The notes beneath the pieces are model-generated. The model saw only the letters and a program-made list of their open reading frames with translations, did no database searches and was not told the origin of the DNA. A DNA stretch of 20,823 nucleotides from IMG/VR virus record IMGVR_UViG_3300032294_000618, positions 1 to 20,823 of that record. The stretch is one strand, 5' to 3'. This stretch comes from a virus. Both the position numbers and the translations under genes were made by a program. Below are positions 5,298-10,554 of the stretch, piece after piece. Position 1 is the stretch's first letter. Each line of letters opens with the position of its first letter.

Positions 5298-6557
5298 TTA
5301 GTACCCAGAAATTACATCCAAAGTCTCGTATCCGTCATCTTCGTAATCCTGCTGATAGTTGGATACCGCTAACTGATCTACATACGCCAATGCGTCGACT
5401 AAGTCGTCATGCACATTAGCAGTGGGGAAGAGGAGTAACTGATCTACTAACTCTCTCCAGTCTTCTTCCTTGTTTAGGGTGATTCTGCCATGCTCGAATC
5501 TTCCCTGTAACGCCCACGCAATCCGTTCCGTTTTCTTTTTGTTGCCATGCGTCAAATCTGTGATGTGGAAATACACACTGTACTTACGCATCAAATCATT
5601 TAGGTAAGGCGCTACTGCATTCTTTAGCGCTCCACGCTCGATTCCTACTGCGGTAGGCTGGTATTCCTGTACTGCCCTTAAAATCTTCCCAGCGGTCTCT
5701 TTGATGTCCCAGCGACCGTGGATAATCTTTTCTACAAACCAATCGCCAGTGTCTTCTATTTTAACAATCGCTATTGCGGATTCGTCTAAGCGTTTCTTTG
5801 AAGCGCCAGCGTTCTTCGCCACATCCTCAAATCCTGCAAGGTCGATTGCAATAACATAGTCGCCCTGCCCCGGATCTTCACCATAACGAACCCATTCCTC
5901 TTTGAAGATCTCCTGACCCGCATTGTCGAAAGAAGCCTCGTATTCCTGTTTGAAGGCAAACGACGAGAGCGTTTTTCTTGCAGCGTCCACCTCTTTCGGG
6001 TCAATCGTCTCATTGTCTTTAGTAGTAAAGTGCCATGCTTTCCATTCAGGATCTTCTCCTTCAAAGCCTAGCTTGTACATCTCGTAGAACCAATTACGAC
6101 CGGAGGGAGTCGAAATAAACATCGCTTCACCTTTACGGTCCGAGAGCGATGCTCGGATAATCTTCTCCCAAGTGTCTTGCTTAATAAACGCACACTCGTC
6201 AAGGACTGCGTAATACAAACTGAGACCACGAAGCGTATCACTGTTATCTGCACCACGGACATGAATCTTACGACCATTAATCAGTGTGATGTCCAGATTG
6301 TTAATGTGTGCCGACTTAATCACCGGCTTCCCAATCTCTAGGAGACTGTCCCAGATAATCTGTCTGGACTGACCTAGCGTTGGCGACACATACAGCACTG
6401 CAGACCCTTCCGGTGCTTCTAAAGCCTTAATAATGAGCATCATCGTTGCTAGACGACTTTTACCGCACCGCCTCCCGGCTGCTATTACTTTAAAGCGAGT
6501 CTGGTCCTTAAAGACATCTTGCTGCCACTTTAGCAGCTGGAAGTTAAGACTCGTCAC
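5298..6557 (-). CDS. terL: Terminase large subunit (packaging ATPase and nuclease), 419 residues
   Basis: This is the motor that translocates DNA into the prohead and cuts the concatemer. The ATPase domain shows Walker A GRRCGKS at residues 28-34, Walker B AVLDE with D120-E121, and a coupling motif FISTPSG near 148-154. The RNase H-like nuclease domain has acidic residues at D239 (VIAIDLAG), E307 (VGIERG) and D384/D385/D388 (HDDLVDAL). The length is at the short end for the family. The start is GTG at 6557: an in-frame TAG lies just upstream with no ATG between, and GAGG sits 6 nt before the GTG. It overlaps the preceding gene by 14 bp, so translation is probably coupled. Confidence 0.93.
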   Translation of the reverse strand: MTSLNFQLLKWQQDVFKDQTRFKVIAAGRRCGKSRLATMMLIIKALEAPEGSAVLYVSPTLGQSRQIIWDSLLEIGKPVIKSAHINNLDITLINGRKIHVRGADNSDTLRGLSLYYAVLDECAFIKQDTWEKIIRASLSDRKGEAMFISTPSGRNWFYEMYKLGFEGEDPEWKAWHFTTKDNETIDPKEVDAARKTLSSFAFKQEYEASFDNAGQEIFKEEWVRYGEDPGQGDYVIAIDLAGFEDVAKNAGASKKRLDESAIAIVKIEDTGDWFVEKIIHGRWDIKETAGKILRAVQEYQPTAVGIERGALKNAVAPYLNDLMRKYSVYFHITDLTHGNKKKTERIAWALQGRFEHGRITLNKEEDWRELVDQLLLFPTANVHDDLVDALAYVDQLAVSNYQQDYEDDGYETLDVISGY

Positions 6558-7029
6558 TATCGACCTCGTTCTCGACGATGTCTACGACACCAGCATCGAC
6601 AGTAGGACTATTTAGTCCAGTGATGTTAATGCTAATCTGCGGTGTTGAACCACTATTCTTAGCGGCATCGAATACCGACAAGGGTAATAATCTATCGACA
6701 CACAGCTTTAGTGCTGCCATGTTGTCCTTATCATTTACATCCAACGCTTTATGAATCAGCGTCTCAATAATCTTGTCTCCGGAGGTTCCAAGCAATCTAG
6801 CTTTGAACTCATTGATTCTTGCTGCGTCTCCGGCGGGTCTACCGACTTTGCCACGGTTACCCTTCTTTTTCGCCTCAATGTCCTTCTTTAGCGGACGACC
6901 TACTTTACGACGAACTATCTTCGGACGCTTGTGTTCTACAAGGTCTGCACTGACTGCTTCCTGTGCAATCCCCTTCGGGGGCGGTTTAGTTTCGACAACA
7001 GAAGTTGTCACTTCTACTTTTTCTTCCAA
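6544..7029 (-). CDS. terS: Probable terminase small subunit with AT-hook-like motifs, 161 residues
   Basis: The gene directly precedes and overlaps the large terminase, the usual place for the DNA-recognition subunit. The first 70 residues are disordered and basic with two AT-hook-like KVGRP motifs at residues 42-46 and 61-65. A helical region follows with IIETLIHKALD and AALKLCVDRLLPLS, resembling the C-terminal part of the DUF5681-type phage family (from memory). The C-terminus is acidic. The start is TTG at 7029: an in-frame TAA lies upstream, no early ATG exists, and AAGGA is 8 nt before the TTG. A general DNA-binding protein is the alternative; recognition of the packaging site is inference. 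Confidence 0.65.
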   Translation of the reverse strand: MEEKVEVTTSVVETKPPPKGIAQEAVSADLVEHKRPKIVRRKVGRPLKKDIEAKKKGNRGKVGRPAGDAARINEFKARLLGTSGDKIIETLIHKALDVNDKDNMAALKLCVDRLLPLSVFDAAKNSGSTPQISINITGLNSPTVDAGVVDIVENEVDSDES

Positions 7030-7140
7030 TGTCTTTGTCCTTAATGGGAGACTTGTTTAAATTAGCGACAATCCATCTATATAGGGTTTTCGCTATCGGA
7101 GAGGTTTCTATAGGAGAAGAATATTAATCATCCTATATCG

Positions 7141-7168
7141 CTAACGAATCATCCCTAACGAATCGTCA
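7141..7168. repeat. Tandem direct repeat in leftward leader
   Basis: The 10-mer CTAACGAATC occurs at 7141-7150 and again at 7155-7164, giving two 14-bp units in tandem. They lie 16-39 bp downstream of the inferred leftward transcription start. They could be a regulator binding site or part of the leader RNA. Confidence 0.55.
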
Positions 7169-7175
7169 TAGTTCT

Positions 7176-7193
7176 ATATAGTGCGAACTATAT
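7176..7193. promoter_or_regulatory. Inverted repeat overlapping the leftward -10 box (operator candidate)
   Basis: ATATAGT and ACTATAT form perfect 7-bp arms around a GCGA centre. The right arm covers the -10 hexamer of the leftward promoter and the left arm covers the expected transcription start. A dimeric protein bound here would block RNA polymerase. The binding protein is not identified. Confidence 0.5.
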
Positions 7194-7215
7194 CATACTT
7201 TTTCATTTTTGTCAA
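7187..7215 (-). promoter_or_regulatory. Near-consensus leftward sigma70 promoter for the packaging/structural operon
   Basis: Read on the minus strand, a perfect TTGACA (-35, 7215-7210) is followed by exactly 17 nt and then TATAGT (-10, 7192-7187), with an extended TG one base before the -10. The predicted start is near 7180, giving a leader of about 150 nt before the small-terminase TTG. Such strength suggests host RNA polymerase transcribes the structural operon unless it is repressed. Confidence 0.8.
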
Positions 7216-7240: not shown

Positions 7241-7330
7241 GTATAGACCCTCCGGTGCGGGACTCCATCGGCTTGATCGGTCTCCGCTTACCCTACGCTA
7301 GAGACCACTTCGTGTGCGCCGATTCCGTTA
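7241..7330. other. GC-rich island with nested stems (structured RNA or packaging-site candidate)
   Basis: GC content is 60% at 7261-7320 against about 28% nearby. An outer stem pairs ATCGGC (7267-7272) with GCCGAT (7318-7323), and an inner stem pairs GGTCTC (7279-7284) with GAGACC (7301-7306). No tRNA T-arm or anticodon arm fits and no reading frame is convincing. It lies upstream of the leftward promoter, about 0.25 kb from the small-terminase gene, so a cos/pac-type site, an origin or a small RNA are all possible. Confidence 0.4.
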
Positions 7331-7396: not shown

Positions 7397-7409
7397 ATTG
7401 CAGTGCAAT
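7397..7409. repeat. Perfect 13-bp palindrome
   Basis: ATTGCA and TGCAAT flank a central G. It overlaps a TATAGT hexamer at 7409-7414 that has no good -35 partner. A protein-binding site is possible. Confidence 0.4.
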
Positions 7410-7508
7410 ATAGTCTATTTTTACTATTTTGTATGCTTGCTTTTTACTTTTTTGTGTACGATAGCGGCTCCGACAACATTACATCACAGCCACAACCCCT
7501 CCCCCCTA

Positions 7509-7526
7509 TGTTGTTTTTATACAACA
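7509..7526. promoter_or_regulatory. Palindromic operator candidate, copy 1
   Basis: TGTTGT and ACAACA arms are separated by the 6-nt spacer TTTTAT. The same 18-bp architecture recurs at 7655-7672. Dyad arms of 6 bp with a fixed spacer match the binding style of dimeric helix-turn-helix regulators (established for phage repressors in general). The cognate protein is not visible in this window. Confidence 0.55.
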
Positions 7527-7649
7527 GTTTATAGCTACAAATATGCATCAATGCGTATATTCGCATACATCGATATAGTCAAAAACTATTAAGATCAGCA
7601 CAGCCGATAGAGCGAATGTATGAGGCGATGAAGCACCTTTATAGTGCAA

Positions 7650-7679
7650 CCTAGTGTTGTAAAAATACAACAGTCTAGG
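7650..7679. promoter_or_regulatory. Palindromic operator candidate, copy 2, within a longer hairpin
   Basis: TGTTGT and ACAACA (7655-7672) flank the spacer AAAAAT, repeating the site at 7509. Here outer arms CCTAG (7650-7654) and CTAGG (7675-7679) extend the symmetry, giving a 12-bp stem with a 2-nt bulge and an AAAA loop. There is no T-tract after it, so it does not look like a terminator. Confidence 0.55.
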
Positions 7680-7745
7680 CTGATAGATCTAAGCTATTGG
7701 CATTGGATCTTGATAGTTAAATACAATGAAAACATAGGGTTTATA

Positions 7746-7770
7746 CCTATTCCATTAGCGACAGAATAGG
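7746..7770. repeat. Hairpin upstream of the first early gene
   Basis: CCTATTC (7746-7752) pairs perfectly with GAATAGG (7764-7770) around an 11-nt loop that contains TTAGCGA. The sequence just before it, TAGGGTTTATACC, resembles that before the hairpin at 8023-8051. There is no T-run after it. It may be a leader RNA element of the early operon. Confidence 0.45.
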
Positions 7771-7824
7771 ATCATAATAGAGTCATAGTAGTGATTGATT
7801 AACAAACCAAACGGAGTAGATAAA

Positions 7825-8010
7825 ATGACGAAAGCACAAAAAAGACAGTTAGATTTAATCGAAGTTTATATTGATAACCAAATGCAGGATGTTGCGGCTA
7901 GATCGCTCTCAGCAATGATAAGATCCGCAATGACTAACAAAAGCAAAGAGTTTTTAATGCAAAGAGCCATTGATTTAAACTTAACAAAAAGACCTGAATT
8001 TATTGTCTAA
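7825..8010 (+). CDS. Early protein, hypothetical, 61 residues
   Basis: The first gene of the rightward operon begins MTKAQKRQLDLIEVYIDNQM and is helical throughout, with basic Lys/Arg spacing. It resembles short phage early proteins that begin MTKAQ (from memory), with no assigned function. I chose the ATG at 7825 because GGAG lies 8 nt upstream; an in-frame TTG at 7795 has no such signal. It lies just after the control region and is followed by a hairpin, so it is probably the first protein made after infection. Function unknown. Confidence 0.7.
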   Translation: MTKAQKRQLDLIEVYIDNQMQDVAARSLSAMIRSAMTNKSKEFLMQRAIDLNLTKRPEFIV

Positions 8011-8022
8011 ACCTAGGGTTTG

Positions 8023-8051
8023 TCCCTATTGCGGATCGTTAGCGATAGGGA
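8023..8051. repeat. Strong hairpin between the first two early genes
   Basis: TCCCTATTGC (8023-8032) pairs with GCGATAGGGA (8042-8051) over 10 bp with one G-U wobble; the loop is 9 nt. No T-tract follows, so simple intrinsic termination is unlikely. An RNA-processing site, attenuator or antitermination element are alternatives. It shares sequence with the hairpin at 7746-7770. Confidence 0.5.
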
Positions 8052-8057
8052 TAGACT

Positions 8058-10326: not shown

Positions 10327-10554
10327 ATGCACTGCACAATATGTGATAAGTTATTAAACGATTACGAATCAACACGAAAGACCCTAGACGGGCAATATCT
10401 GGATATGTGTCAAGATTGCTACACAGGGCTGGATGTATTGATTCCGACAATAGATCGTAAGGATTTACTACACGAGGCTGATATGCCTAGTATGGATGAT
10501 TTATTTCAAAACTACGAGGACTATACAGACTACACAGACAATGAAGACCTATGA
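10327..10554 (+). CDS. Zinc-ribbon protein, 75 residues
   Basis: Two CxxC knuckles, C3-x2-C6 and C28-x2-C31, form a probable four-cysteine zinc-binding site in the N-terminal half. The second half is acidic and ends in a Tyr/Asp/Glu-rich tail (YEDYTDYTDNEDL). AAAGG lies upstream of the ATG at 10327, after a 90-bp non-coding gap containing the palindrome AGGTA-A-TACCT at 10275-10285. Zinc ribbon plus acidic tail would fit a small transcription-interfering protein, but this is inference. Confidence 0.7.
   Translation: MHCTICDKLLNDYESTRKTLDGQYLDMCQDCYTGLDVLIPTIDRKDLLHEADMPSMDDLFQNYEDYTDYTDNEDL

Follow-up and report, generated by a model that had tools for sequence, protein, structure and literature searches.

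A TGTTGT-N6-ACAACA palindrome conserved at control regions of uncultivated phages, a candidate operator

Introduction

Two copies of one 18-bp palindrome, TGTTGT-N6-ACAACA, occupy the non-coding gap of a viral genome in which leftward packaging genes (encoding a 161-aa protein, the large terminase and the portal) lie on one side and rightward early genes on the other. What is this palindrome for, and what would recognise it? The window analysed here is the whole 20,823-nucleotide record IMGVR_UViG_3300032294_000618, whose portal is only 22-26% identical to those of its nearest cultured relatives (HMO-2011-like podoviruses and others). A sequence-only reading of this DNA had proposed that the palindromes bind a dimeric regulator, possibly a small helix-turn-helix protein of the phage acting with the help of DNA looping, to control early or late expression.

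The two palindromes and their surroundings

Both palindromes are present in the gap (Table 1), and neither a third exact copy in the 20.8-kb record nor any copy in 100 dinucleotide shuffles (expected 0) was found. Read in the terminase sense, palindrome 1 is TGTTGTATAAAAACAACA. The start-to-start distance is indeed 146 bp (13.9 turns at 10.5 bp per turn), and the corresponding outer spacings in L003 and L011, two loci of relatives, are 138 and 136 bp (13.1 and 13.0 turns). All three values are near whole helical turns, but three cases prove nothing and looping between the palindromes is not supported. The CCTAG/CTAGG arms said to extend palindrome 2 exist in the window, but in L003 and L011, which have this copy too, only the right flank is retained (GTCTAGG/GTCCAGG) and the left flank differs, so that the extended stem is not conserved.

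Table 1. Coordinates of the palindromes, promoters and genes of the control region in the window
Feature	Position	Strand	Remark
Palindrome 1, TGTTGT-TTTTAT-ACAACA, TGTTGTTTTTATACAACA	7509..7526	none	adjoins G tract
Palindrome 2, TGTTGT-AAAAAT-ACAACA, TGTTGTAAAAATACAACA	7655..7672	none	upstream of candidate rightward early promoter
Leftward promoter of packaging genes, TTGACA-N17-TATAGT	7187..7215	-	11/12 consensus matches, TG before -10 box; conserved
Candidate rightward promoter, TTGGCA-N19-TACAAT	7697..7727	+	found by eye; weak by consensus; block conserved in L003, L011
G tract GGGGGGAGGGG, adjoining palindrome 1	7496..7506	-	from alignment of relatives
161-aa protein, first gene of leftward operon	6544..7029	-	two AT-hook-like GRP motifs
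Terminase large subunit	5298..6557	-
61-aa protein, first rightward gene	7825..8010	+	function not assigned

Throughout, promoter positions are counted from a transcription start assumed, rather than mapped, to lie 7 nt past the -10 box. Measured from the leftward promoter, palindromes 1 and 2 are about 300-450 bp upstream, and the centre of palindrome 2 is at about -71 of the weak candidate rightward promoter. No strong promoter in the window has a copy at its -50/-60, a point against the operator model. Neither palindrome appeared in a terminator scan; a G+C-rich stem with a T tract is missing, and the stem energy of palindrome 1 is about -5 kcal/mol.

The 11-nt G tract is kept in all 25 aligned relatives, even in those that lack the palindrome; in L008 and L012 another inverted repeat, GATAG-TTTTTCG-CTATC, takes the place of the palindrome beside it. 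This tract, which might have a primer or R-loop role, is reminiscent of the one in mitochondrial conserved sequence block II. An odd palindrome, ATTGCAGTGCAAT, lies between the G tract and the leftward promoter at 7397-7409; it is conserved in nearly all relatives and is possibly a second operator. In addition, repeated blocks (TAGGGTTT...CCTATT and TTAGCGA/TCGCTAA, at 7730-7775, 8009-8056 and 7060-7165) surround the starts of early genes as well as the leftward leader, and perhaps represent untranslated-region structures. A structured RNA considered for the G+C-rich block at about 7250-7330 was discarded, the consensus fold being almost empty and covariation nil. The 161-aa protein has no family match, and no repressor or integrase family (CI/Cro included) is among the top-ranking family matches listed for the window.

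Conservation among terminase relatives

Among 80 loci encoding relatives of the terminase, the TGTTGT/ACAACA arms are found 79 times around a 6-nt spacer, as against 0-3 times for any other spacer length, and no other inverted hexamer at that spacing comes close in frequency. The arms are thus conserved in relatives. Most copies are either in the divergent control region, which in many relatives holds from one to five or more of them, or at the promoter behind the portal gene. Many scattered copies in coding DNA were not found, and both window copies are intergenic. Palindrome 1 is nearly invariant across the aligned control regions, the form beside GGGGGGAGGGG being mostly TGTTGTATAAAAACAACA, and has been lost beside the G tract in a few relatives (e.g., L008, L012 and L034). 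Many relatives carry an extra copy between the portal gene and a gene of 85-86 aa; the window has no such copy and a different gene directly follows its portal. The half-site varies on one arm only, as TGTTGC (22 distinct times) or TGTGGT (15), and none of these variant palindromes has both arms changed alike. Since single-arm changes are common and the other arm never compensates, it is recognition of the DNA, and not an RNA stem, that appears to be conserved; a protein that reads the two halves of the site separately would tolerate such changes, whereas an RNA stem would not.

The placement of the palindrome relative to promoters follows a few fixed patterns in these relatives. Its centre is at -50.5 of the leftward promoter in L040, L041 and L046 and at -62.5 in L042-L045, and in L049 it overlies the -10 box. 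The portal-gap copy lies 8-9 nt past the -10 box, that is, it spans about +2 to +19 with its centre at about +10.5. The leader behind this copy (for example at L099:16863-16880, G012, and L456-L560) contains CAGTT..GGAG..AACTG around the ribosome site, and the gene that follows starts with GTG; folding of this leader could mask the ribosome site.

The palindrome at promoters of unrelated viral contigs

Many viral contigs that encode no detectable relative of the window's proteins carry the identical 18-mer too, either singly or in arrays in which the next copy starts no more than about 50 bp on. The neighbourhood of the 18-mer often contains TTGACA-N17-TATAAT, followed about 30 nt later by a gene start. 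When viral contigs were scanned for the motif 2-22 nt upstream of TTGAC-N16-18-TATAAT, at least 120 stretches were recovered, as against 10 in an otherwise identical control with a 7-nt spacer, and a reversed-pattern control (50 records) was almost empty. In 257 Gb of prokaryote genomes, the same composite pattern matched 7 times: five matches resemble chance occurrences in chromosomes, and the other two come from phage-like contigs in lake bins. The gap that separates the motif from the -35 box is strongly non-uniform, with peaks at 6, 9, 16 and 19-20 nt (chi-square 60, 20 df; 159 distinct sites), and its helical phasing is suggestive, not significant (Rayleigh p = 0.07). Because these contigs were picked by exact motif and exact hexamers, the conservation of the motif within them exists by construction; the promoter link is supported independently by the control with a 7-nt spacer, by the scan of prokaryote genomes and by the way in which the gaps are distributed.

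When the motif was instead required downstream of the promoter, 118 stretches were returned, and roughly half the distinct ones among them represent the portal-gap promoter of related phages. Among these matches, a TTTTGGCGCC/GTTTCACGTGAAAC group appears to form a separate cluster of palindromes and was excluded as promoter evidence. In L198, L471 and L502, TGTTGT-N6-ACAACA, its flanking arms extended, is clustered with TTTTGGCGCC and the parS-like GTTTCACGTGAAAC, perhaps as a partition or origin region.

The motif-bearing records range in size from about 4 to 345 kb and include T4-like phages and much larger ones. Indeed, G039 is related to T4-like cyanophages through a 712-aa protein, and several other motif-bearing records share genes with it. 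Among 50,697 records of cultured phages, no full-length exact 18-mer with an AAAAAT or ATAAAA spacer was reported, a negative that is soft because 18-mers lie close to the E-value limit of the search. Two plasmid matches to the 18-mer proved unrelated, and an Rfam search gave no match. In the literature, a TTGTNNNNNNACAA string occurs in a paper on the MocR/GabR regulator EnuR.

Comparison with known regulatory systems

One close parallel comes from the sites of the late-gene activators of P2-like phages. It has been described that the P2-like phage Smp131 uses a TGT-N12-ACA consensus (PMC3931495), and that a related TGTTGT/ACAACA motif lies 50-90 nt before start codons in phiRSY1, whose late promoters are without a sigma70-type sequence (PMC5694545). 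Like the sites of P2 Ogr and P4 Delta, every exact copy described here contains the TGT-N12-ACA dyad. Unlike them, both triplets are conserved with a strict 6-nt spacer, and in many phages the site is followed by a consensus TTGAC-N17-TATAAT, in contrast to phiRSY1. Moreover, no Ogr_Delta protein (PF04606) exceeded the cut-off in any of the 31 records searched, many of them fragmentary; the weak matches were mostly to the zinc ribbon of an exonuclease-like protein of 246-257 aa.

Sites of the CRP/FNR type are likewise palindromic, with two short half-sites around a 6-nt core and a centre near -61 in some promoters, and those of FNR share with the present palindrome a TTG-N8-CAA geometry. The half-site here is TGTTGT (with the variants TGTTGC and TGTGGT), however, and not TGTGA or TTGAT. 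Against the -41.5 and -61.5 of CRP/FNR, the centres lie at -62.5 in L042-L045, at about -60.5 for the gap peak of 16 nt and at -50.5 for the main peak, and this last, commonest position is unusual for CRP. The operators of lambdoid CI and Cro resemble the present ones in that, at many loci, tandem copies stand about 19-30 bp apart in a divergent control region. They differ in that no CI/Cro-like gene was seen beside the arrays (loci read by eye) and in that the site is here common to unrelated phages.

What reads the palindrome

The palindrome is real and conserved, is very probably a regulatory DNA site, and is spread more widely than first noticed. Its reading as a dimeric-regulator site is supported by the strict spacer, the conservation, the intergenic position and the fixed placement at promoters; among the parts of the original proposal that gained no support is the small phage-encoded helix-turn-helix partner, no conserved example of which was found. 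On balance, and by a little, we favour an operator for a dimeric, sequence-specific regulator, most likely host-encoded, acting at sigma70-type promoters. Each TGTTGT half-site would be read by one subunit, the six AT-rich core bases mostly not being read base by base, and the bound regulator would help or block RNA polymerase depending on the position of the site. Upstream copies (centre about -50 or -60) may serve activation or upstream modulation, those that cover +2 to +19 or the -10 box suggest repression, and the two copies of the window might set divergent early and late transcription. In L248, L262 and L276, two adjoining copies lie where genes converge. A promoter role, which is not obvious there, does not fit these pairs, and they count against the operator model.

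The assignment to the host rests on two points: the site is common to podovirus-like, T4-like and much larger phages, and no DNA-binding gene shared by them has been found. A common host clade would then be the most likely source of the regulator. Against this, host chromosomes among the 257 Gb of prokaryote genomes were not enriched in consensus sites accompanied by consensus promoters, as might be expected of a host regulon. A search for the host through the terminase in genome contigs gave no match.

That the regulator is instead encoded by the phages, as a small helix-turn-helix, ribbon-helix-helix or zinc protein spread between phage lineages, appears unlikely. Such an origin would agree with the concentration of site and promoter in viral contigs and their near absence from prokaryote genomes, as well as with an early region rich in small proteins of unassigned function. 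Two small helix-turn-helix-like proteins were seen, one in a single genome and the other in two. Yet BLAST across 31 genomes and searches with 40 terminase-family profiles disclosed no DNA-binding family common to the terminase group and to 12 phages outside it that bear the motif; what the two sets share is limited to general enzymes and a small number of structural or function-unassigned proteins. Ogr_Delta also stayed below its cut-off in the 31 records searched. Because many records are fragments, a missing gene or site is weak evidence. A 75-aa protein with two CxxC pairs (10327-10554) is present in 14 of 19 terminase-group genomes and absent from the other motif phages.

It is improbable that the palindrome acts as RNA, in the form of a 5' or intercistronic hairpin that influences translation, termination or the stability of the mRNA. 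In favour of this, a transcript would begin with the stem wherever a copy spans +2 to +19, portal-gap variants still pair through G-U, many copies lie within a few bases after a stop codon, and palindrome 2 taken together with its flanks folds better than shuffled sequence does. These points are outweighed by the one-arm changes, which go uncompensated and in the case of TGTGGT break pairing on both strands, by copies upstream of -35 boxes that are untranscribed from those promoters, by a stem that alone is weak and without a T tract, and by the unconserved flanking arms of palindrome 2. We give as little credence to a replication origin or packaging (pac) site, for which the repeated palindromes, the G tract and an AT-rich stretch at the cumulative GC skew minimum beside the packaging genes would speak, because unrelated phages have the motif at sigma70 promoters without a G tract and divergent gene direction also yields a skew minimum.

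Conclusions

Returning to the host-encoded operator, we propose tentatively, at a little short of even confidence, that a single 18-bp operator, undescribed in the searchable literature, is common to unrelated uncultivated phages by way of the regulator of one poorly cultured host clade. Operators are usually confined to a single phage lineage, and an identical one in podovirus-like, T4-like and much larger phages would point to one regulator exploited by many viruses of the same host. If this is true, the operator would be both a handle for finding the regulator and a marker tying phages to their host, and may offer a simple DNA signature by which uncultivated phages can be grouped and their hosts assigned.
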